This document shows, one piece after another, positions 50,254 to 64,000 of a stretch of 64,000 nucleotides of DNA. Location of the stretch: positions 496,001-560,000 of the forward strand of contig JAOALC010000004.1 of assembly GCA_025153775.1 (NCBI GenBank), in the 5' to 3' direction. Below the pieces are notes generated by a model. That model was not told the origin of the DNA, searched no databases, and saw only the letters and a program-made list of their open reading frames with translations. This DNA comes from SAR92 clade bacterium H231 (lineage in GTDB: Bacteria > Pseudomonadota > Gammaproteobacteria > Pseudomonadales > Porticoccaceae). Numbering within the stretch: position 1 is the stretch's first letter; every line of letters starts with the position of its first letter. The position numbers were made by a program, and so were the translations under genes.

Positions 50254-50643
50254 CTAAGTGCCCTCCACCCGCCTATTCCAAGCCTCCAGGGTCCCATCCT
50301 TATCCCGCACATGAGGCCCACGGGCCAAACAATCGGAACAGGCCCTAAAGTACAGCGTCCCATCGTGCCCAGGCTCATTGCCCACACCATTATTGCCCTC
50401 CACAACAACTTCATCCGCACAAAAGGCACAGGCCCTAGCCACAGCATCGTCTGCCGCAGGCTCAGCATTAGACCGTTCATTCCAAAATAGCCCAGCCAGA
50501 TAATAGTCCGGCCCCTGAGGCCCCTTTGCTAAACAGCTAGGACAAAACACAATATGAGAGAGATAGGGCCACTCCGCCAGGCCGGCAAATTTAGCTTCAC
50601 CACCACAGTGGGGGCAGTCTTCTAGTACCATTTCTAATTGCAT
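50254..50643 (-). CDS. Tandem Lar-like zinc-ribbon protein
   Basis: A 129-residue protein with two copies of the pattern CxxC...CxxC-LA-K/R-GP...WN-R: cysteines 10/13 and 34/37 with WNER, then cysteines 72/75 and 102/105 with WNRR. The pattern matches the zinc-ribbon family that includes the phage/prophage restriction-alleviation protein Lar. Lar-type proteins usually have one such unit. A strong ribosome site (AGGGAGGA) precedes the ATG. Neighbours do not identify its role, and restriction alleviation is only a family-level suggestion. Confidence 0.7.
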   Translation of the reverse strand: MQLEMVLEDCPHCGGEAKFAGLAEWPYLSHIVFCPSCLAKGPQGPDYYLAGLFWNERSNAEPAADDAVARACAFCADEVVVEGNNGVGNEPGHDGTLYFRACSDCLARGPHVRDKDGTLEAWNRRVEGT

Positions 50644-51192: not shown

Positions 51193-53580
51193 TTAATCCA
51201 TCCCAAACACACCTGAAAGTCTAAATTCTCTGGGTGGCTCTTCCTCCAATAGATGTTTCACCAAGTAGTTCCAAGCACGACGAATTAAATAGTTGGAAAC
51301 ACCATGACCAAGATTAGGTAATAAAATCAGGTCAAAATCCTTATTGGCCTTTTGCAGTGCTTCTACCACCCTAAAACTAGCCGCAGGTGGCGCAGTCGTA
51401 TCTAACATGCCATCCATTATCAACAACTTTCCTTTGAGACTAGACGCATACTCCTCCGGAAATTTATGGACTTCCCTTTGCCCAATTAAAACTTCATATT
51501 TATCGCTCCACATGCTGCTAGATATCATGCGACTGTCATGAAGTTGATAAGCAATCCCAACATGATAAAAGTCCGGATACTTCAGCAACCCCTGCACTGC
51601 GCCCGGGCCGCCGGATGCATGCGTTGTAATACCCACGCGATTGAGATCGATATAGGGGTAGCGTTCAGCTAGCTGTTGAATTCCGCTGATATGGTCTTCC
51701 AGCTTACTCGCTGACTCTGCCCAGCCAAAACATTCATCATGAAAGGCCTTATGACGAAACGGTGTTCCACGACCATCAATTTGCACCACAATAAAACCAA
51801 GTTCTGCCAATGCGGCGGGATCCAAATAAAACCATCCAAATGCCGATTCATTGGTAAAGGACCCTTTCGGCACAACCGTTAATTCCGGTGTATTGAAAAC
51901 ATGAGAAATCACTGGATAACTCTTCTCTGGCGTAAAGTCAGATGGGCGGTAAACCAAGCCATAAATATCCGTCACCTTATCTTCTGCTTTTAGTTTAACC
52001 GGCTCGGGCCATTGCCAACCTTCAGGCAATGCGGACACATCTGCCGTCTCTAGTTTTGCAACCTCACGGCCATCTCTATCAACTAGAATACTCACGGGTA
52101 TTTTATCGGCTCTTGACTGAGTCACTACGGCAAAGTCACCTGTATTTGAAATCGCATTTGAGGCGCTATTACATCCTGAAGACATTGTTAACATATCTTT
52201 CTTTGCAGCAGCAACCACTTCATAATCGCCACCAGCTAAAGTCACCATCTCACCCGTATCAATATTGATTCGAACAAGATCGCGATAATAGGGATCGATA
52301 TCGGGATTGCGCCCGGCGGTTTGTGCAAACACCTCCCGCCGTTTGGGATCAAAGTGCACAAAGGTTCTTACAACCCAATCCCCCTGTGTTACGGTATTTT
52401 TAAGCTCTCCAGTGGTCAAATCGTAGAGATAAAAATGAGCCCACCCGGTTCGCTCGGAGTACCACAGAATTTCGTGACTATCAGGCAGCGGCATAAACGT
52501 AGGCAGTTCATCAATATTTAACATCAGGTTAATATGAGTGTCAGCGGTTTCCTCAAAGAGCAAGCGTGTTATTCCAGTTTCTGTATCAAACTCAATTATC
52601 CGGGCATATTTATAATAGCGATCGACATCGACAAAATACGCGCGGCGGCTGTCGTTATTCCACCATCCCAGATTGGCGGTAAAGAGCCCATTGTTGTTTC
52701 GCGTCACGGGTATCTGAGTGTAGCTGGCCGCCCGCTGTCGTCCGGTGGTGATATCAATCGCCAGCAGCCGCAGGGTTTCAATATGTTCGTCGCCTTGATA
52801 GGCAAATCGATAATAATTTACCTGGGGGCGGATACTTCCGTCACCCGGCACATGTTGCATTACCGGCACGGCTTTCACCTGACGGGTATCTCGCTGCACT
52901 GTAAAGATGCGCCTGCTGTCAGGAGACCATAATACCTGCAGGCCCTCCCCACTCATGGTATGAGCCCATGCTGTGCCAGGACCGCCGTATACAAAATGTT
53001 CTTCCCCGTCGGCGGTCAAGGGCTTTTCTTCGCCGTTCTCTAGTGTTCTCAACCACAGATTATGATTTTGACTAAAAACGATATATTTTCCGTCAGGAGA
53101 AATTACCTCATCTTTACCCAACGGAATATCAATTTCAGAACAAGCACCGGTGGCAGTAGAAAACTGCCAGCGTTTGTCGAATGCGGTAAACCGTAAAATG
53201 CTAACGGTATCCTCAGTATCAAGCTCCATTTCGACTTTGTTGATTGGGAGTTTATCGACATCGACCGTTTTTTGTGTTGCCTCTGCCAGTGCGCCTGCAA
53301 GTATCTGATGGTCAAATGCCGGGGTATTGGTGGCCGTCTTGGCATTTACCAACCGGTATTCCTTACCATACACAGCTGATGGGCCTTCTCCTTTCCGAAT
53401 ATCACGTTCATACCAAAAACAATTACTCTCTCCAATCCACACGGGAAACAGCGTTGTATTAAGGGCAATTTGTTTTGTGAAAATACCTTGCATGAGTGTT
53501 CTGGCGCGATTGTATCGAGCTTCTAATTCTTCGGAGGTGTTCGGTAGTTGAGTCATTTTATTCATCATAGCTTTCCACAT
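51193..53580 (-). CDS. S9 family (DPP-IV-like) peptidase with altered catalytic serine motif
   Basis: A 795-residue prolyl-oligopeptidase-family protein: an N-terminal beta-propeller (about residues 90-500; blades SPDGKYIVFSQNHNLW and WSPDSRRIFTVQRD) and a C-terminal alpha/beta hydrolase domain. Asp727 (GMLDTT) and His759 (NLGHG) of the triad are present. The nucleophile elbow, normally GHSGGG or GWSYGG, reads THASGG (653-658), with Ala655 where Ser belongs and Ser656 one residue later. No signal peptide is seen, so it is likely cytoplasmic. Start codons at 53568, 53565 and 53556 are also possible. It follows the amidohydrolase gene by 53 bases. Confidence 0.82.
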   Translation of the reverse strand: MWKAMMNKMTQLPNTSEELEARYNRARTLMQGIFTKQIALNTTLFPVWIGESNCFWYERDIRKGEGPSAVYGKEYRLVNAKTATNTPAFDHQILAGALAEATQKTVDVDKLPINKVEMELDTEDTVSILRFTAFDKRWQFSTATGACSEIDIPLGKDEVISPDGKYIVFSQNHNLWLRTLENGEEKPLTADGEEHFVYGGPGTAWAHTMSGEGLQVLWSPDSRRIFTVQRDTRQVKAVPVMQHVPGDGSIRPQVNYYRFAYQGDEHIETLRLLAIDITTGRQRAASYTQIPVTRNNNGLFTANLGWWNNDSRRAYFVDVDRYYKYARIIEFDTETGITRLLFEETADTHINLMLNIDELPTFMPLPDSHEILWYSERTGWAHFYLYDLTTGELKNTVTQGDWVVRTFVHFDPKRREVFAQTAGRNPDIDPYYRDLVRINIDTGEMVTLAGGDYEVVAAAKKDMLTMSSGCNSASNAISNTGDFAVVTQSRADKIPVSILVDRDGREVAKLETADVSALPEGWQWPEPVKLKAEDKVTDIYGLVYRPSDFTPEKSYPVISHVFNTPELTVVPKGSFTNESAFGWFYLDPAALAELGFIVVQIDGRGTPFRHKAFHDECFGWAESASKLEDHISGIQQLAERYPYIDLNRVGITTHASGGPGAVQGLLKYPDFYHVGIAYQLHDSRMISSSMWSDKYEVLIGQREVHKFPEEYASSLKGKLLIMDGMLDTTAPPAASFRVVEALQKANKDFDLILLPNLGHGVSNYLIRRAWNYLVKHLLEEEPPREFRLSGVFGMD

Positions 53581-53633
53581 AGTTACGTTTTCAACACCCG
53601 GAAAATTAGGATTCTCAAGGTGTCTTTCTAAGG

Positions 53634-55022
53634 TTATTGTTCAATCATATCGTCCAGCAGTTGATCCAGTTTTTGGCGATCAAGGTGTCTGCCACGAGAA
53701 ATAACAGCAGCTATCCGTCGCGTATTATTGATATCTTCTAAAGGGTCTGCGTCGAGCAAGACAATGTCGGCATAGCGACCTGCAGCAATGGAACCGAAGT
53801 CATGTTCAATCTCAAAATATTTGGCGGGGTTCAGCGTTGCCGTTTGTAACGCCGCAAGTGGCGAAAGTCCCACCTTAGCAAAGGTCGATAATTCAAAATG
53901 CAAGGCTAAACCGGGCGCACACAGCTCTATATAAGGCGGATAATCTGTACCTGCCATCAGCCTCACGCCCGCCTTATGCATCAGGCCCACGGTTTCCATA
54001 AACCAGGGACCCCATTGCTGGCGACTTTTCTCAACGTCACTTTCTCCAGGCAGCCCATACGTGTCTATCAGCTCTCGCAACAAGTCCTGAGGTAAGTAGT
54101 TGACGGAATGCTGGCGTTCAAGGTCTTCACTTAGTCCCAGATCATCGATGCTGGCAATCGCCATGAGTGTGGGGGTATGCCATGTCCCATTGCTGACAAA
54201 GCACTGGATCAACCTGTCGCGATTTTCCGAATCAAGATCCGATAGTGACAGAGAAACCACCTTTTCCATCGCTTCAAGCAGCTTCCACCCTGCATCCATT
54301 GATGTCTGATTAGCATCCAGTGCAGACACCCTTCTGTCTCTCCACAGATCAGCATCTTTAGTGCAGTCAAACTTCATCCCTGTACATTGGCCACCGAGAT
54401 GCAGAATTTCATAGTGGGGGGCCACCTTAAGCACATCCTCAATGGTCATGCGCGTAGGAACATGCCCGCCAGTTCTCAAGCCATGATGATCGGCTCGTTG
54501 CACAATGGCAGCAAATACCTCTGGCTTTAACATCTCGTAGGTTTTAATCATATGAACACCGGCATCCACCAATTCATCCACCAAGGCATAAGCTTCTTCC
54601 GGTGTATCAGCAGTAAGGGATTTGGCGCTCCCCCATGGTGGAGAGCTATTTATATAAGGTCCGGAAAACCAAAGCCGCGGTGCAATCGCGCCTGCTTGCT
54701 CAGATATATCTCGTAGCATAAGTGTTTTATCCAGCGGTTCGCCTATCATCCGGATACTAGTAACACCCTGAGCAACCAGTAATGCCGGCAGTCGCTCAGC
54801 AAGTTGGGGATATGTCACTGCATGGCACAACATATCCCACAGTCCCGGAATGGCATAGGTCCCCTTAGCATCAATTACTTTGGTGTTTGGCGGGGCTGTT
54901 AAGGTGCCAGGCATAACCACCTGTGTGATCCTATCGCCTTGCGTTAGAATATCTCTGATGCCCTTCACACCAGTGTAGGTGTCGATAACGGTTGCCCCTG
55001 TGAGCATGATTTCAGCTGACAT
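53634..55022 (-). CDS. Amidohydrolase family protein with incomplete HxH metal motif
   Basis: A 462-residue TIM-barrel amidohydrolase of the imidazolonepropionase/prolidase-like type. Ligands visible: carboxylated-Lys candidate K160 (HMIKTYE), H187 (GGHVPT), H208 (EILHLGG) and D360 (AGTDYPP). The first strand, usually GLWDMHVH, reads GLWDMLCH, with Leu65 replacing the first His. GGAG precedes the ATG by seven bases. No signal peptide. It may cleave a peptide-like or cyclic amide substrate, but the altered site makes activity uncertain. It is downstream of the symporter gene on the same strand. Confidence 0.83.
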   Translation of the reverse strand: MSAEIMLTGATVIDTYTGVKGIRDILTQGDRITQVVMPGTLTAPPNTKVIDAKGTYAIPGLWDMLCHAVTYPQLAERLPALLVAQGVTSIRMIGEPLDKTLMLRDISEQAGAIAPRLWFSGPYINSSPPWGSAKSLTADTPEEAYALVDELVDAGVHMIKTYEMLKPEVFAAIVQRADHHGLRTGGHVPTRMTIEDVLKVAPHYEILHLGGQCTGMKFDCTKDADLWRDRRVSALDANQTSMDAGWKLLEAMEKVVSLSLSDLDSENRDRLIQCFVSNGTWHTPTLMAIASIDDLGLSEDLERQHSVNYLPQDLLRELIDTYGLPGESDVEKSRQQWGPWFMETVGLMHKAGVRLMAGTDYPPYIELCAPGLALHFELSTFAKVGLSPLAALQTATLNPAKYFEIEHDFGSIAAGRYADIVLLDADPLEDINNTRRIAAVISRGRHLDRQKLDQLLDDMIEQ

Positions 55023-55099
55023 CCATAATCTCCATTAATAGCTTTGATTTAATATTCTCTCGAATGCTGAATTTGTGATTATTTCGATAGTATGAAGAC

Positions 55100-55405
55100 T
55101 TAAACATATAGGTTAACTGCAGTACTCACCGTATAAGGTTTAAGCCCCTCTATGCCGCCTTCCATACCAAGACTGGATTGATTGTGAGCTTCTAGACCAA
55201 CATTAACGCCACCAATAGAAGGCATAGACGTGCCCATCAAGATAAAGAGCTCGCTATCTAAGCTTTCAGACAGCTATACCGTGGCGGTTGTAATTGACAA
55301 TCTAGATCGGCCATGCTTCGTATTTATTTCCTTGCTATAGCTTGGATAAAAAAACGTAGAATCAGCGGTGCCCGAAATAATAGGCTTTCCTATAGAGTAG
55401 TAATT
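55100..55405 (-). pseudogene. Decayed gene, C-terminal fragment, possibly aldehyde dehydrogenase
   Basis: This occupies the gap between the amidohydrolase and symporter genes (55023-55389). One minus-strand frame is open from 55405 to a TAA at 55100 except for one in-frame TAG at 55276-55274. The last ~40 codons read like an aldehyde dehydrogenase end (SSLGMEGGIEGLKPYTVSTAVNLYV, compare SGxGxEGGxEGL). The upstream part (GKPIISGTADSTFFYPSYS) was not recognised. No start codon with a ribosome site was found. It overlaps the symporter 3' end by 16 bases. Confidence 0.4.
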
Positions 55406-56763
55406 TCAGTCAAGGAGTCACGCCTTTTCTTCAGTCGCTTGAGGATAATGCTATGGCGGCGAGTACAGATGGGAATAAACGCAATAATCATTATCGAGGT
55501 TGCCACAATACAAACAGGAATCCAGGTAATAGCTATGCGCAAACCAAATATGGCGTCGTCACTTTGCCCCGACGTAGATGAAGGCTCAAACCCGTACCAC
55601 CCCACAATACCCAAACCAATAGCGCTGCCAATAGCTAAATTGACCTTTGTTACCATGGTAAAAATCGAAAAATAGGTAGCAGCATGGTCAGCACCAAACT
55701 TCCAGGAGCCATAATCGACAATATGACTCAATAGTGAGGGAGCCATAATATTGTTTGAAGCAATACCAACATTAAGGAAAACCATTATCAAGAGCAGAGG
55801 AATAAACTCTTGGCTTCCGGGTGTTAACATACCTATACAAAAAATACCCATCGCCATCATAGATACACCCAGCATCCATGTTTTTATATTCCCAATGCGA
55901 TTCGCGGTTTTATACCAAACACCCAACGCAAACATACTAGAAGCGAGACTAATAACGTAAATCAGTGAAAATTTATCTCCAAGACCAAGATAGGCATCGA
56001 TATAGATAAAATTTAGTGAGGCCCACATGCCCACCCCTGAACCAGACAAAAATACCGCCAGGAGGAAAACCAATAGGGGTTTATTCGTTAATATAATCTT
56101 TAGCAGAGAAAACTCTACCGCTTGATTTTGGATGCAATGGCCATCAACCCTAACACCATCAGGCATCCATTTTATGCAGCTAAACAGTGTGGGTATCAGC
56201 AGTACCGCCGCAAGAAAAAAAGACCACTTAAGCGTCTGCGGGGTAATCTCGGTGGTGTCAAAAAAAGGTAGCTGTGGCAGCGCATAAAACATCAGTGAGC
56301 CCGCAAACATCATAAAGGAGCGCAAGCCATAGAGTTGATTGCGTCCCCGGGGACATTGGGTTAACTCATTAGGCCAGGCCAGATGAGGAATATCGAAAAG
56401 CTTTAAAGCGAGGTACACAGCAACAAACCAGCTGAGAAAATAGATTGTAGTAACATTTTCAGGTGGTATATAAAGAAAGTACGTACTCAGTAAAAAAAGC
56501 AAACTGCCGAGCACGATAAATGGTTTTCGTTTGCCCGTACGGCGATAGTACCTATCAGAAATATATCCCACCACCGGGTCAGTTACTGCATCTAGCAGGT
56601 TAGCAAAAAATAGCACTGCAGCAATGGATGTTAATGCCAATCCAAAGTACTTGGAATAAATACCTTGTAAAATAAGCAAGGGGCCAAATAGAAAATAGAT
56701 GGCCGTTGCCGGCATTGCATAGTTCAGTGCCTGCCGCAGATCTAGCGGGTTACTAGACATCAT
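55390..56763 (-). CDS. GPH-family (MelB-like) MFS symporter
   Basis: A ~457-residue inner-membrane transporter with about 12 helices. The N-terminal loop ANLLDAVTDPVVGYISDRYYRRTGKRKPFI is the cation-coupling Asp motif (DxxTDPxxGxxSD) of the glycoside-pentoside-hexuronide:cation symporters. The start at 56763 (or the adjacent ATG at 56760) is preferred over a TTG 15 bases upstream. Members of this family often move sugars or sugar acids, but in TonB-linked loci they can carry other small molecules. It lies 108 bases after the TonB receptor gene. Confidence 0.86.
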   Translation of the reverse strand: MMSSNPLDLRQALNYAMPATAIYFLFGPLLILQGIYSKYFGLALTSIAAVLFFANLLDAVTDPVVGYISDRYYRRTGKRKPFIVLGSLLFLLSTYFLYIPPENVTTIYFLSWFVAVYLALKLFDIPHLAWPNELTQCPRGRNQLYGLRSFMMFAGSLMFYALPQLPFFDTTEITPQTLKWSFFLAAVLLIPTLFSCIKWMPDGVRVDGHCIQNQAVEFSLLKIILTNKPLLVFLLAVFLSGSGVGMWASLNFIYIDAYLGLGDKFSLIYVISLASSMFALGVWYKTANRIGNIKTWMLGVSMMAMGIFCIGMLTPGSQEFIPLLLIMVFLNVGIASNNIMAPSLLSHIVDYGSWKFGADHAATYFSIFTMVTKVNLAIGSAIGLGIVGWYGFEPSSTSGQSDDAIFGLRIAITWIPVCIVATSIMIIAFIPICTRRHSIILKRLKKRRDSLTEITTL

Positions 56764-56871
56764 GGATTGGCCCCGCAATAAAATAATTTATGGATTAACC
56801 GGACAAGTACTCAGCACCGAACCAGGTAATGTTAGTTACCTGATCCGGTGTAAGCAAAATAGAAATAAGTG

Positions 56872-59598
56872 TTAGAAGTGATAGTTGAGATTGACACCAA
56901 TAGTTCGAGGGCGCAGCCGGTAGGCCCGTGCAAAGCCTAAAGGAACAAACGCGGTTTCAACCCAGGTAAATTCGTCGGCGTTAGTCAGATTTTTAACATA
57001 TAAATCAATATCAAACTTCTCGAAGTTGATACCGGATTTAAGATTTATCTGACTATAACCACCGGCCTCGGGCTGACCCGGAGTAGGATTGATAACACTG
57101 GAGTAATCAGAGACATACGCATAGTCCATCCGGGCAAAACTAGCGTGGCCACCGACGTCAAAATTGTATTCAAGACCCATACTAAAATTAAAATCCGCTG
57201 ATCCAGGCAAATCATCGCCATCACTACCCAGATTTGGTGCGTCCTCCGTTAACTCTGCAATATTATAGGACGTACCAATGTTCACTAACAATTGCTCTGT
57301 CAATCGTGCCTGAATCTCAAGCTCTACGCCCTGAGATTTTGACGAGCCAGCGTTAAACGTAAAGGTCGCTGCACCACATGTAGAAATGGGTATATTGACC
57401 GGCATTCCCTCCCAATTTATATGGTAGATCGCCGCATTAAAAGTCACTCGGTTATCTAGAAGCCCCAACTTAGCACCCAACTCAAAGCTTGCAGAGGTGT
57501 CTGGAGCTATATTTTTAGGAACCGTCACTCCATCAATAACACCATCTCCATCCGGGTCACACTGAGGAGGCACAATCACTTGGGGTTTGCCCAACCTAAA
57601 TCCCTCCGCCCATTGTCCATACAAAAGAACATCATTAGTCGGTTGATAACTTAGATTAAATTTGTAAGTTTGATCCTCGCCTTTTCCAAAGGTTAGATCA
57701 TTGGCAAATTCAAAGCCCAAAAACGAAAGCCGAGTAAGGTTCTCCCGCTCAAATTCGAAATGACGAATCCCAAAAGTGGCTGTTAGATAGTCGGTCAACT
57801 GATAGTTTAATTCACTAAAGACCGACTTTTGCTCGACAGGTACTTCTATATGACCACCAAAGGCTACTTCATCTGGGTTGCCTAGAGCAATATCGCCACT
57901 CCATCTATCTCCTACTACCCAATCATTTTCTCTATCTTCATAGTAAATCCCCGCCAGCAGTTGTATGGGCCCATCAAAACTCGAAGAAAACCGAAGTTCT
58001 TGTACAAAAACATCAATATCCCGCGTAGAAGACGTACTAAACGGAGTATTAAAATTGAAGATGCTAGCATCTTGCTCGGCTACTGGGTCGCTGCTAACTT
58101 TTGATGTCGAACTTAACAGGCTGCCCCAACCGAAATCGTACTCAAGTACCAAATTTGTAATATCCGTTTTACTCTGCAATGACTCATAGCGACTGCCATC
58201 TGGTCCTACCTGCAAGCGCGCTTGCTCAAATTCTCCGGCGAGCAAATAATCAACTTCCGGGTAACCGTCCTGCTCGATATCCTGCTGGAGATACATCAAA
58301 GTGGCCTTAAATTCGTCTGTCGGTTTCCACAATGCCGTCAGGCGAAAACCTGTATACTCGTCGCCACCTACATCGTTTCTATCCTGCACAAACCCTCCAT
58401 TGGGCACTGTAGCGGCAATCAAGTTATCAGGCTGGCTGGCACCCACATTGTCGATAAAGCCACTATTATCGAAACGGTATGCCACGGCGCGAATTGCAAG
58501 TTTGTCTTCAATCAGCGGAACATTAAGTATTCCCTGAATCATAGTATTAGAACCACCTTGCTGACCCGTACTAGAAAAACTTGTTGCCACTTTTCCTTCT
58601 ACTTCTTGCAAGTTAGGCGCATGGGGAATCACACGAACCGTACCGGCCATGGCACTAGCACCATAAAGCGTGCCCTGAGGGCCGCGTAATACTTCGATAC
58701 GCTGGATATCGACCAGCTTGATATCTGCACTTCCACCTGTTTCGCCTGCACTAGCCGCCGAAAGCCCTGTTAAAGGCGTTTCACCAAAGTAAACACCTGC
58801 CGTCGAGTCCTCGATTTGTGGATCAGCTGTCATTCCCCTGATCACAACGCTGTTTTGCGATGCACCTCTGTCCTGAAAGGTAACTCCCGGCATACCTCGC
58901 AAATAATCGTCCATTCCTACTAGATTTCGCTTGTCTATAGTATCGTCGGACAATGCAGAAATACTCATCGCCGTATCCTGCAAACTCTGCTCCCGCTTAT
59001 TCGCTGTCACAATAATCTCATCAATCCTACCCTGCGCCGTGGCAGCCTCATCGCCCTGCGCCAACGCGGAACCCACTCCACCAGCGGTGGCAAATAGCCC
59101 TACCATGGTGGCTAATACATTTTTCCTTTTGCTTGTATTCATGCTCTTCCCCTTAGTTTGATCAACCTGAGTGATAAGCAGATGACCCTCTGCGCTGAAG
59201 TTGCCTTCGAGGCCGGTGTTGGCAAGAAGCACAGCTACCGCACGGGGTACTGAGTACACTCCCTGTAAGGTATTTGTCTTGTGGTCTTTAACCCGGTTAA
59301 AGGGGTAGATCACTGTGACATTGGCCTGTTGCCCAAACACTAGCAACGCGTCATCGGCTGTTTGCCGGGGAATATTAAAGGTTACCGTTTGGCTGGCCGC
59401 TGACTGGGGCTGTGGTGCAAGCCTGTCGTTGGCATGGCCTGGTAACGCTAGACTGATCAGGGCTGTCACAAGCAGTCGCTGGAGCCACTGCGTTGTTCGG
59501 CTTTGATAGCTGGAAATACCGTCCCGGCTTGTGACCCTGCACACAGAATCTGCTGTGAGTTTTTGCTGGGTTACGAAGATAAGAGACAGTAGATGCAT
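56872..59598 (-). CDS. TonB-dependent receptor with N-terminal STN signalling domain
   Basis: A 908-residue outer-membrane transducer. Order: signal-like region (residues ~38-56), STN domain (about 70-146, TVTFNIPRQTADDALLVFG), a second signal-peptide-like segment starting at Met153 (MNTSKRKNVLATMVGLFATAG...ALAQG), TonB box-like DEIIVTANKREQ (193-204), plug domain (ending near IEVLRGPQGTLYGASAMAGTVR), and a barrel ending in NLNYHF with terminal Phe. AAGGG lies six bases before the first ATG. STN plus adjacent fecR and sigma genes indicate trans-envelope signalling. The ligand is unknown. Confidence 0.93.
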   Translation of the reverse strand: MHLLSLIFVTQQKLTADSVCRVTSRDGISSYQSRTTQWLQRLLVTALISLALPGHANDRLAPQPQSAASQTVTFNIPRQTADDALLVFGQQANVTVIYPFNRVKDHKTNTLQGVYSVPRAVAVLLANTGLEGNFSAEGHLLITQVDQTKGKSMNTSKRKNVLATMVGLFATAGGVGSALAQGDEAATAQGRIDEIIVTANKREQSLQDTAMSISALSDDTIDKRNLVGMDDYLRGMPGVTFQDRGASQNSVVIRGMTADPQIEDSTAGVYFGETPLTGLSAASAGETGGSADIKLVDIQRIEVLRGPQGTLYGASAMAGTVRVIPHAPNLQEVEGKVATSFSSTGQQGGSNTMIQGILNVPLIEDKLAIRAVAYRFDNSGFIDNVGASQPDNLIAATVPNGGFVQDRNDVGGDEYTGFRLTALWKPTDEFKATLMYLQQDIEQDGYPEVDYLLAGEFEQARLQVGPDGSRYESLQSKTDITNLVLEYDFGWGSLLSSTSKVSSDPVAEQDASIFNFNTPFSTSSTRDIDVFVQELRFSSSFDGPIQLLAGIYYEDRENDWVVGDRWSGDIALGNPDEVAFGGHIEVPVEQKSVFSELNYQLTDYLTATFGIRHFEFERENLTRLSFLGFEFANDLTFGKGEDQTYKFNLSYQPTNDVLLYGQWAEGFRLGKPQVIVPPQCDPDGDGVIDGVTVPKNIAPDTSASFELGAKLGLLDNRVTFNAAIYHINWEGMPVNIPISTCGAATFTFNAGSSKSQGVELEIQARLTEQLLVNIGTSYNIAELTEDAPNLGSDGDDLPGSADFNFSMGLEYNFDVGGHASFARMDYAYVSDYSSVINPTPGQPEAGGYSQINLKSGINFEKFDIDLYVKNLTNADEFTWVETAFVPLGFARAYRLRPRTIGVNLNYHF
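59142..59154 (-). promoter_or_regulatory. Internal ribosome site and start codon within the TonB receptor gene
   Basis: AAGGGG (59154-59149), six bases, then ATG (59142) encoding Met153. The residues that follow form a complete signal peptide ending ALA-QG. Translation from here would give a ~756-residue receptor without the STN domain. Confidence 0.6.
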
Positions 59599-59745
59599 GG
59601 TTTACCCTTAGTCTGTTTTGTAGTTTTTTAATTTTTGTTTATGGGGCTGGCGATTATTTTGCGAGCCACACAACCGGCCAAGCGGTTTGTGGCAGGCTGT
59701 TTGTGTTGCCTGTAGCATCTGTGGCCTGGCTGGTGCTGGCACGCG

Positions 59746-60870
59746 CTACTCTATGGCGGACAGGCGCAGCTGGGAGCCTGTCTGTTCTAGCTTTAGGTCT
59801 AGGCTCTTGCTGATGCTGGCCAGTAGGCCGTGTATGTCGTCGGTTTTGTAGTGGCCACCCACACGAATGTCTTTGATGCTGGGGTCGCTAATAACCAGGG
59901 TTTTGTCGGTGTATCGAGCTATCTCCTGCAGGGCCTGCTCTAGGGTTTCGCCTTTAAATATAAGAGCGCCCTGCTGCCAGGCGAGCTTTTGCTCTAGCAC
60001 TGGGGGCAATGGGGTTTGGGTGGCTTTGATGACTTTGTTGTACTGCACAGATTTGCCGGCATGGACTATTTTTTCTTGGTTGGCGGGCGGGCTCTGGGGG
60101 CCCTTGAGTGCTGGGCTGGGGTTTTTATCTGGCTCTATGTCGGCAAATACTTTGACGGTGCCCTCGGTCACTGTGACATCTATGCTCTGGTTGCTGGGGC
60201 TGCCGGCGCTGAGGTAGCGCACGTTAAAGGCTGTACCCACGGCCCATACCATGCCTTCACCGGCGTACACCATAAAGGGGCGCTGGGGGTTTTTGGCGAC
60301 ATCGAAGTGGGCTTCGCCGCGCAATAAATAAATATGTCGCCGGTCGCTGTTGTAGTCCACTCTGAGTTCGCTGTTGGTGTTGAGGGTGATCTGGGTGCCG
60401 TCTGGCAGTGCGTAGCTGGCTTGCTGACCAATATCGGTTTCAAAATGGTTGGGGCTGTGGCTGCCAATAAACACAGCCACCAGCGCTAAGGCGGCCAGAG
60501 TTGGGGCCCAGGCTTTGGGCTGCTGCAGGCGTTGCAGCAGTTGGGTTAGCTGGGTTTTGACTGTTGCGGCTATACCAGCCTGCGCTGGCATAATGGGTTG
60601 GCTGGCGGGCATTGGGGTTGCTGGCTGCATGGGGAAGAGTTCGGCGAGCTCTTGCAATATGCCCATGGAGTCCCAGTTGTGGGCCAGTTGTTGCAGGTAG
60701 TTGCGGTGAAAGCTGCTGGTGGCTGCCCATTGCTGCAGCTCTGCAATCTGTTGCTGGCTTAACTGGCCCTGGTCAATTTTGGCTATCCAGGCACCCGCCT
60801 CTTGTTTAATTGTGGCTCGGTCTCTAAATTCTGTAATGTTGCTGCTGTTAGCTGCTCTGTGGTTAGCCAT
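59746..60870 (-). CDS. FecR family anti-sigma regulator
   Basis: An inner-membrane anti-sigma factor receiving the signal from the STN domain of the TonB receptor. The 374 residues have an N-terminal FecR-N/DUF4880 domain (AGAWIAKIDQGQLSQQQIAELQQW), one transmembrane helix (ALAALALVAVFIG-like, about residues 130-150), the FecR domain (ALPDGTQITLNTNSELRVDY, GEAHFDVAKNPQRPFMVYAG), and a C-terminal DUF4974/STN-like domain (FKGETLEQALQEIARYTDKTL). The ATG at 60870 overlaps the sigma gene by 8 bases; an upstream in-frame start would overlap it far more. Confidence 0.93.
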   Translation of the reverse strand: MANHRAANSSNITEFRDRATIKQEAGAWIAKIDQGQLSQQQIAELQQWAATSSFHRNYLQQLAHNWDSMGILQELAELFPMQPATPMPASQPIMPAQAGIAATVKTQLTQLLQRLQQPKAWAPTLAALALVAVFIGSHSPNHFETDIGQQASYALPDGTQITLNTNSELRVDYNSDRRHIYLLRGEAHFDVAKNPQRPFMVYAGEGMVWAVGTAFNVRYLSAGSPSNQSIDVTVTEGTVKVFADIEPDKNPSPALKGPQSPPANQEKIVHAGKSVQYNKVIKATQTPLPPVLEQKLAWQQGALIFKGETLEQALQEIARYTDKTLVISDPSIKDIRVGGHYKTDDIHGLLASISKSLDLKLEQTGSQLRLSAIE

Positions 60871-61486
60871 GATAACGCCCGCCGTGGTTAGCCCCCGATT
60901 GAGTTGGTTGGGTTGCCAGGGCCTCCTGTTCGTCTTGCTCGGCCATGTAGTCGGTGCAGCGAACAATGGCTTTTGTGAGATGGGCCTCTACGGTTTTTAA
61001 GCTTATGCCCATCTGCTCGGCAATCTCTTTTTGCGTGTAGCCATAGACTCTGCGCAATATATACACACGCTGACATTTGATGGGTAGCTGGCGCACTGCG
61101 CGACAAAACAGCTCGAAGCGCTGCCGCGACTCAAACTGCTGTTCCATGGTCGGCGTTATCTGTGAGACCGGTTCGGCGTCTGTATCCCCTAGTGCATCTG
61201 TGAGCCGGTAGTCACTTTTGCTGAGGCGGTTGAGGGCGAGGTTTTTTACGGTTTGGTACATGTAAGACTTGGGGTGCAATATTTCACGGTGCTGTTTGGC
61301 CTCTATTACCTTTACAAAGGCTTCTTGCACCACGTCTTCGATTTCCTGGGGGGTTTTAAAGTAGCGGTAGGCGAAACGCATTAATGAGGTGCGCAGGCCC
61401 ATATAGATACCGGCCATATCCGTGCGGTCGGCTGTGGATTGATTTTCGGTGTGTGGCTGTTTGCCCCGACGCTTTTGCTCGGCCAT
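60863..61486 (-). CDS. ECF sigma factor, FecI type
   Basis: A 207-residue extracytoplasmic-function sigma factor. Region 2: FAYRYFKTPQEIEDVVQEAFVKV and MYQTVKNLALNRL. Region 4: LPIKCQRVYILRRVYGYTQKEIAEQMGISLKTVEAHL. It heads the sigma-fecR-receptor cluster and is coupled to fecR by an 8-base overlap. The ATG directly abuts an AAGG ribosome site, which is unusually close, so an internal start is possible. Confidence 0.92.
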   Translation of the reverse strand: MAEQKRRGKQPHTENQSTADRTDMAGIYMGLRTSLMRFAYRYFKTPQEIEDVVQEAFVKVIEAKQHREILHPKSYMYQTVKNLALNRLSKSDYRLTDALGDTDAEPVSQITPTMEQQFESRQRFELFCRAVRQLPIKCQRVYILRRVYGYTQKEIAEQMGISLKTVEAHLTKAIVRCTDYMAEQDEQEALATQPTQSGANHGGRYHG

Positions 61487-62465: not shown

Positions 62466-63197
62466 TCAAACTGCTATCGCGGGAATCATGTCCCAGACCT
62501 TACCTTCGAGGTTGCGGCCGTTGGCCTTTTTGGAGCGTTTGATTCCATCAACACCCCAAGAGCCCCATTGTTTGAAAAAGAAATTAACATTCGACCTGTG
62601 GCATTGGTCGCGCAGACTAACAACCCACTCCTGCTTCATAGGCCTCGCGGCATGGCCAGACTCGCCGCCGACAATCACCCAGTGAATTCCCTCCAGGCTT
62701 ATGCGACCTAGATCTTCAAGCAAGGGCTCTACTGAAAGGAAGCGCGTCTTAGCTTTGATAGCCTGCAGGTGCGGTATACGTGGCTTGCCAAATTTCTTAT
62801 CTTCAACTGAGACGCCCAGCCATGCGTTGTCCGGCACCGAACGGGTGTTGAAATACTCGCCCATTAATGCGCTTCGTTTGGTGAGTATTTGGTAGGTGTG
62901 CCAAGGGGTTTGCTCAATAACCTCCATCACTTTGTCTACATAGTCAAAAGGCACTTCATCCTGAAATAGGTCGCTCATGGAATTAACAAAATACATGGTG
63001 GGCTTGCGACGCCGCAGAGGCTGGGAGAGACGCTCGGGTAACAGGCTGAGTTTGAAACCATTGTCGTAACCGGGCGCACCCATGGCATGCAGTCTTTTGG
63101 CCATGGTTTCGGCATAACAGTGCTTGCAACCAGGAGAGACTTTGGTGCATCCGGTAATAGGGTTCCAGGTTTGCTCTGTCCACTCAATTTTGCTCAT
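62466..63197 (-). CDS. DUF5131 (phage Gp37/Gp68) three-cysteine protein
   Basis: A 243-residue protein beginning MSKIEWTEQTWNPITGCTKV. Three cysteines C17, C24 and C27 (C-x6-C-x2-C) give the family its three-Cys motif, which resembles a radical-SAM-type cluster. Other conserved parts are YFVNSMSDLFQ, WLGVSVED, FLSVEPLLEDLG and WVIVGGESG. It follows tcmP by 33 bases and almost certainly is co-transcribed with it. Function is unknown; nucleic-acid modification is a guess. Also found in phages and mobile DNA. Confidence 0.85.
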   Translation of the reverse strand: MSKIEWTEQTWNPITGCTKVSPGCKHCYAETMAKRLHAMGAPGYDNGFKLSLLPERLSQPLRRRKPTMYFVNSMSDLFQDEVPFDYVDKVMEVIEQTPWHTYQILTKRSALMGEYFNTRSVPDNAWLGVSVEDKKFGKPRIPHLQAIKAKTRFLSVEPLLEDLGRISLEGIHWVIVGGESGHAARPMKQEWVVSLRDQCHRSNVNFFFKQWGSWGVDGIKRSKKANGRNLEGKVWDMIPAIAV

Positions 63198-63230
63198 ATC
63201 AACCTCGAAAAATTTGCTTTAATAGTAGCA

Positions 63231-64000
63231 CTAATGTTTTTTAAGAATGCTCTGCGCAGCTCTATCTGCGAGCCTCCATGCCTGTTGTTTTGGATTTGAG
63301 ACTGCAAGATAAAATAAAAACAGCAGCCGATTATTGTTAGTCAGCCTATGCGGCTTGGCGACATAGTGAAAGGTTTCTCTGAGCCGCTTGGTGACCCAGA
63401 CTTCCAGCTCATCAACATTAAGCCGCTCTGTACCATCATGGTTACTTTGATCACCAAATAAATCATCCATCGGAGGCAGTGACTTAGGCCTATAAAGTGC
63501 TTGCTCCCATTTATCTGTTCCCAATAATCGCGTAATTGTCTTGCGCCATTCAGGTCTGATTTTCGCACCATCTTTCGGAGTCATTCTGGTAATCGCAGAT
63601 ATGGGAAACAACAACCATAAATCAATTTTTTGAGTGGCCGAGATATACTTTAAAGTAGCCCAGTTTAGCTGGGTGCTGTAGGGGTCCAAAAATAAAGCTG
63701 CTCGGTCCTTTTTACCTAAAGCGGCGCAAAACTCTGGAACAAAACTGTTGGCATCTTTTTCAGTGATATGAATATTTTTGTTGGGGTAGTTTACTTTGAG
63801 CGCCCGTAATTCTCGGATATGGTCAGGATTTAAATCATTAAAGTGATAGTGGTGGAAGCCTGGCTCTATATTGAGCGCCGTGGTCACCGACCCCTGGAAG
63901 TCCTCATGGGGAATAATCTCGCCCTGAGAGCTTTTTACTTTTGGATCATGAGAGCCAGTGCCGGCGAAGGCATCGACATAATGCAATGTAAATGGCTGGT
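63231..64000 (-). CDS. tcmP: Three-Cys-motif partner protein TcmP, 5' end beyond window
   Basis: At least 256 residues are visible; the frame stays open to base 64000, so the N-terminus is missing. The visible start PFTLHYVDAFAGTGS is the family hallmark, like a methyltransferase motif I. ALFLDPYSTQLNW resembles a motif IV-type active-site loop, and IDLWLLFP follows. TcmP is always paired with the three-Cys DUF5131 protein, as here. Substrate unknown. Confidence 0.85.
   Translation of the reverse strand, partial: QPFTLHYVDAFAGTGSHDPKVKSSQGEIIPHEDFQGSVTTALNIEPGFHHYHFNDLNPDHIRELRALKVNYPNKNIHITEKDANSFVPEFCAALGKKDRAALFLDPYSTQLNWATLKYISATQKIDLWLLFPISAITRMTPKDGAKIRPEWRKTITRLLGTDKWEQALYRPKSLPPMDDLFGDQSNHDGTERLNVDELEVWVTKRLRETFHYVAKPHRLTNNNRLLFLFYLAVSNPKQQAWRLADRAAQSILKKH

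Follow-up and report, generated by a model that had tools for sequence, protein, structure and literature searches.

As judged from sequence comparison, the gene row at positions 51193-61486 of the window (the whole 64,000-nucleotide stretch of the SAR92 clade bacterium H231 genome analysed here) is one member of a shuffling family present in several copies and no single special locus. Such loci may together constitute a cell-surface signalling system that also takes up small compounds of exogenous origin, probably peptide-like ones, a reading that, taken with the whole working model set out below, we regard as evenly poised between right and wrong. More tentative is the joint proposal of a repertoire of DPP-IV-fold binding proteins, whose hypervariable, dead-site pockets would each be paired with an import receptor, and of two-product TonB transducers with an exchangeable sensor cassette, in which one gene would give rise to both a free STN sensor and an STN-less transporter and cassettes would be exchanged at the internal start. 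A literature search for S9 pseudo-enzymes with TonB systems, for TonB receptors with internal signal peptides and for mosaic transducers returned nothing on point, which is no proof of novelty.

Pfam and NCBIfam scans locate six named genes here, all on the minus strand, just as the preliminary description had listed them: ECF sigma factor, FecR, STN-TonB receptor, GPH symporter, amidohydrolase and S9 gene (Table 1). What had been called a 'decayed gene' is real as well and represents what is left of the C-terminus of an aldehyde dehydrogenase (ALDH); an intact ALDH gene lies between the GPH and S9 genes of the sister locus L015. The only early ATG of fecR, at 60870, is its likely start and overlaps the sigma stop; the listed FecR ORF reaching 60966 is an upstream extension. 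The symporter has an MFS_2 domain but scores 148 bits against TIGR00792, under the cut-off of 231; GPH transporters are classically sugar carriers. In the amidohydrolase, the metal motif HxH reads LxH (PGLWDMLCH), even though the amidohydrolase domain is present (COG1228-type/prolidase test). Among its relatives, L050_9875 and L057 have HxH, and L058 has NxH, a variant that the alignment also shows for molinate hydrolase; this enzyme and prolidases are the nearest solved structures.

Table 1. Features of the locus and its companion gene, with positions in the window.
Feature	Position	Strand	Evidence and remarks
ECF sigma factor, FecI-like	60863..61486	-	Sigma70_r2 and r4_2 over Pfam cut-off
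FecR anti-sigma factor	59746..60870	-	FecR 76 bits, FecR_C 28.5 bits
STN-plug-barrel TonB receptor, full-length frame	56872..59598	-	STN 31.5, Plug 65.7, barrel 133.8 bits
STN signalling domain	59170..59316	-	Pfam aa 95-143; AF2 folded block aa 71-144
Shine-Dalgarno (SD)-like AAGGGGA ahead of internal receptor start	59143..59158	-	
Internal start and second signal peptide (SP2, MNTSKRKNVLATMVGLFATAGGVGSALAQG), upstream of TonB box	59014..59142	-	Recombination junction
GPH/MFS_2 symporter	55390..56778	-	PF13347 191 bits
ALDH C-terminal remnant ('decayed gene')	55106..55273	-	tblastn 34% over 56 aa, E=5e-7
Amidohydrolase, signal peptide not obvious	53634..55022	-	PF01979 65 bits
S9/DPP-IV-like (DPPIV_N) predicted pseudo-enzyme without signal peptide	51193..53580	-	A655 at nucleophile site; D727 and H759 kept
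Double zinc-ribbon Lar-like protein	50254..50643	-	PF14354; companion of these loci

A search of its own genome with the S9 protein found six related genes in five places, with four paralogues at 49-57% identity and a tandem copy at 46%; genome G207 holds seven such copies and G069 at least five. In a sample of 112 genomes of the bacterial family, S9-like matches occurred in eight, all from the genus of the window, two of which (G217 and G238) contributed distant, outgroup-type sequences, and a genome-contig scan queried with the same protein yielded one locus alone. The order sigma-FecR-TonB-[x]-GPH-[x]-S9, where [x] marks a variable position, is repeated with small rearrangements in this genome and in its relatives, and because of this recurrence the linkage of the genes is, on sequence comparison, far beyond chance. 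The gene-order check that had been suggested for the locus thus found synteny conserved in several genomes instead of homologues that are scattered and unlinked. An ECF sigma factor, a FecR with C-terminal domain and an STN receptor are linked, and STN was detected in 14 of 17 scanned receptors. The enzymes around this core vary (Pfam/NCBIfam): they include ALDH, a member of the enolase family resembling L-Ala-D/L-Glu epimerase, a DppA-like M55 D-aminopeptidase, S58, S12 beta-lactamase-like and S15 proteins, asparaginase and dimethylargininase, additional copies being assigned by similarity. A cousin locus from another class, L065, reads sigma-FecR-receptor (48%)-S9-like-amidase-ALDH-MFS.

Some individual genes of these loci bear marks of their own. 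In L017 (13129-13617) a chimeric open frame joins an S9-like N-terminus to an epimerase C-terminus, apparently a sign of recombination between loci. A closely similar S9-like/GPH pair, recognised by matching N-termini, occurs twice in the G069 cluster (L020:1-3131 and L022:8987-11586), one copy being truncated. Finally, the epimerase-like genes L015:4110-5231 and L018:18302-19405 are near-identical over most of their length and differ in their N-termini, which suggests gene conversion between loci.

With its ECF sigma factor, FecR with C-terminal domain and STN TonB receptor in an operon-like row, the locus resembles FecI-FecR-FecA and FoxI-FoxR-FoxA. It differs from these systems, however, in that an SD, a start and a signal peptide lie within the receptor gene, in the stretch separating STN from the TonB box, that the sensing cassette swaps against barrels, and that the sigma unit is tied to GPH, S9-like and peptide-enzyme genes and not to iron genes. 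All 19 STN receptors compared have a complete-looking Sec signal peptide between the STN and the TonB box and plug. An SD-like motif precedes the internal start in 18 of them; of 217 other Met codons in frame, 8 have one (p=7e-20). The exception, L073, has such a site before the neighbouring upstream ATG instead. The internal ATG itself is likewise found in 18. The SD is kept even though the encoded amino acids vary. A number of further STN receptors from the order also have SP2; L069 and L072, two other FecR-linked STN receptors of the window's genome, lack it. In L052 the STN part sits in a separate frame, possibly through a frameshift. The AF2 model of the receptor shows a folded STN, with the SP2 region as an isolated helix (156-169) in a linker of pLDDT<50.

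These features suggest that the STN sensor part could be made separately from the receptor or cut off from it. Could the internal start and SP2 instead be the functionless fossil of a past STN-receptor fusion? A homologous signal peptide stands at the very start of the order's STN-less receptors, opening them directly, and L022a has lost its internal ATG, as such a fossil might. We nevertheless hold this to be somewhat unlikely, since receptors that have diverged strongly still have the SD, the start, the basic n-region and the hydrophobic core, since this conservation extends to L065 from another class and to other families of the order, and since the SD is preserved over different codons and reading frames. 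A separable STN would address the open question of how this domain of TonB transducers makes contact with an anti-sigma factor located in the inner membrane. The preliminary description had relied on the older model, in which the ligand-bound STN contacts FecR and frees the sigma factor; the signalling domain of FoxA, however, binds FoxR without ligand and shields it from proteolysis, and it has been proposed to be cut from the receptor (PMC11637429, 2024). The internal-start architecture would provide this separation by design, and since this natural receptor class has a start codon, a ribosome site and a signal peptide at the place of the would-be cut, the two-product model can be tested on it directly.

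The sigma factor and FecR diverge together (r=0.79), and neither co-diverges with the remaining genes; it was therefore predicted that the STN half of the receptor follows sigma and FecR and that the barrel half does not. This prediction held, the divergence of the STN being correlated with that of FecR (r=0.77) and sigma (r=0.75) but not with that of its own barrel (r=0.01). Thus, L046 and L048, which belong to one genome, are 93% identical in the plug but 31% in the STN, whereas L015 and L048, which come from different genomes, are 72% identical in the STN and 68% in FecR but 38% in the barrel. In L070 and L071, 99% DNA identity is restricted to the SP2 segment, with flanks at 59% and 44%. 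Trees concur with cassette swapping with high support. By these comparisons, sigma-FecR-STN cassettes are swapped against barrels inside the receptor gene, and the internal start segment is the recombination junction. The swaps thus make visible in sequence data that sensing and transport evolve as separate units. A fixed uptake cassette of barrel, GPH and S9 was also considered and rejected, because the correlations behind it rest on one recent duplicate, L048: when this locus was left out, they fell from 0.31 to 0.02 (barrel-S9), from 0.59 to 0.17 (GPH-S9) and from 0.68 to 0.30 (barrel-GPH).

The S9-like protein shares with dipeptidyl peptidase IV (S9B; 5yp1, 2d5l) the two-domain fold over its full length; propeller and alpha/beta-hydrolase fold are both present, and its AF2 model (pLDDT 90.9) has the complete DPP-IV fold (Z 29.9 to 5yp1). 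Unlike that enzyme, it has neither the nucleophile nor a signal peptide, and its active-site face is among its most variable parts. In phmmer and pairwise alignments, GWSYGG of wild-type 2d5l aligns to THASGG in the window, so that Ala655 occupies the nucleophile position and the triad reads A-D-H, not the Ser-Asp-His of S9 peptidases; the elbow alignments are gapped, but the lack of a GxSxG elbow in the window is independent of the gaps. Among 24 locus-linked homologues the nucleophile site takes 13 states, with Ser in two, and only one (L020) has the full Ser-Asp-His triad, which is present in all eight outgroup enzymes (homologues ~31-34% identical to the query). A Sec-type hydrophobic N-terminus is likewise found in none of the 24 and in seven of the eight outgroup proteins. 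The S9-like protein is therefore most likely, as far as sequence can tell, a cytosolic ligand-binding pseudo-enzyme; some members may be active, as the triad of L020 suggests. The 'double hydrolase' of the preliminary description must consequently be abandoned, the S9 homologue having no catalytic Ser and catalysis not being conserved in its family; of the proposed sense, import and process system, the signalling unit and its link to genes for uptake and processing stand, and the S9 protein as a hydrolase does not. Another parallel is offered by DPP6 and DPP10, which were matched in the profile search and which also combine the DPP-IV fold with a missing catalytic serine. These proteins are ion-channel partners, whereas the S9-like protein is bacterial, multi-copy and, by prediction, cytosolic with a hypervariable pocket.

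Where does the variability lie? Loops were defined from the AF2 strands, blind to variability, with the active-site face taken as the C-terminal sheet ends. In the 24 homologues the loops of this face measure 2.15 bits against 0.98 for those of the opposite face (p=9e-7), a contrast that the outgroup does not show (1.07 versus 0.93 bits), and none of 200 size-matched subsamples dropped to the outgroup level. The hypervariable loops lie at residues 562-582, 653-660, 679-704, 725-731 and 755-762. The sole ortholog pair has a dN/dS of 0.12 on the active-site face and 0.13 elsewhere, indicating purifying selection, and recent paralogues of G207 have 0.38-0.44 on the face versus 0.19-0.32 elsewhere; no dN/dS exceeded 1 in the one ortholog pair and the G207 in-paralogs, which leaves diversifying selection unproven. 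From this pattern we infer a binding protein without catalysis whose specificity may shift from locus to locus. The main rival to such a protein is an activity through an unusual residue, that is, an enzyme that still works via the shifted serine S656 or another elbow residue. D727 and H759 are indeed retained in the window protein, whose Ala is followed directly by a Ser (THASGG); the nucleophile site of some homologues holds Ser or Thr, and L020 has its full triad. This activity is nonetheless unlikely, because S656 itself varies (11 states among the 24 homologues), half the clade has one residue deleted from the elbow, several homologues have lost the catalytic Asp and His, and the active-site face has no conserved Ser, Cys or Thr. 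Still less probable is a peptidase family in decay under relaxed selection, a reading for which the lost triad and the highly variable face might speak: the 24 frames are open over nearly their full length (a property that in part guided their selection), conservation is good in the remainder of the protein (mean pairwise identity 45%), dN/dS is 0.07-0.32 off the face and low on the face of the ortholog pair, and true decayed S9 fragments nearby look different (L017_13129, L020_1, L022_8987). As a binding protein, in turn, the S9-like family would be misannotated as peptidases in any genome that carries it, and would provide a naturally occurring set of different pockets on a common scaffold.

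The working model builds on what was computed, namely the gene set and its recurrence, the loss and hypervariability of the S9 site, the missing S9 signal peptide, the conserved internal SD-ATG-signal peptide and the swaps of sigma-FecR-STN against barrels; to these it adds the ligand class, the binding role of the S9-like protein, the two receptor products and the direction of signalling, all of which we infer. In this model, the TonB receptor in the outer membrane would bind and import the ligand, and the STN, freed from the receptor because translation begins internally or because signal peptidase cuts at SP2, would act on FecR and so control the ECF sigma factor, which would turn the locus on. 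The GPH-type symporter would then carry the ligand into the cytosol, where the triad-less DPP-IV-fold protein, with a pocket differing between loci, would bind it and the variable enzyme set would degrade it. The ligand is probably peptide-like, as had been suggested earlier, and the D-aminopeptidase, epimerase, S58, S12 and S15 genes of sister loci lend this indirect support; the range of enzymes suits peptide-like compounds that contain D-residues or unusual ones, but implies no single ligand. Because the genome (~98% complete) contains neither PF13471 lasso protease genes nor NRPS genes, the ligand is likely to be exogenous.

Might the locus instead serve the uptake of iron or a xenosiderophore, like most FecI-FecR-receptor systems? 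The receptor's best score is to TIGR01783 siderophore receptors, albeit below cut-off, and on a contig of a planctomycete MAG (L014:2-6148) the end of an MxcG-like NRPS (carrier and thioester-reductase) is followed by an S9-like gene, whose product has the elbow AHQGGG, and then by an STN-less TonB receptor. Iron uptake is nonetheless improbable here, as no Fur-box-like site rose above shuffled controls upstream of the sigma and receptor genes (simple consensus only) and the GPH symporter, ALDH and peptide enzymes would suit carbon and nitrogen use. It is very improbable that the locus is a lasso-peptide isopeptidase system or scavenges lasso peptides of foreign origin: the parallel drawn in the preliminary description holds for the neighbourhood, in which clusters such as those of AtxE2 and SpI-IsoP also place an S9-family protein beside a TonB receptor and a sigma/anti-sigma pair (PMC9266682), but fails for the Ser triad that isopeptidases require and for the lasso genes, the PF13471 protease included, both missing here, and the family-profile search ranks DPP-IV enzymes first, while the GPH, ALDH, epimerase and D-aminopeptidase genes lie outside the published layout (PMC9266682). 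No lasso isopeptidase is among the 50 fold-comparison matches listed, with which a relation is still compatible.

The Lar-like protein next to the locus accompanies the system more widely. All six PF14354 copies of the genome adjoin S9-like or peptidase genes of the system, and within the genus the protein occurs in only three genomes, all of which have the system. On the other side of the locus, at 62466-63998, a DUF5131 radical-SAM-like protein adjoins the three-Cys-motif partner protein TcmP.
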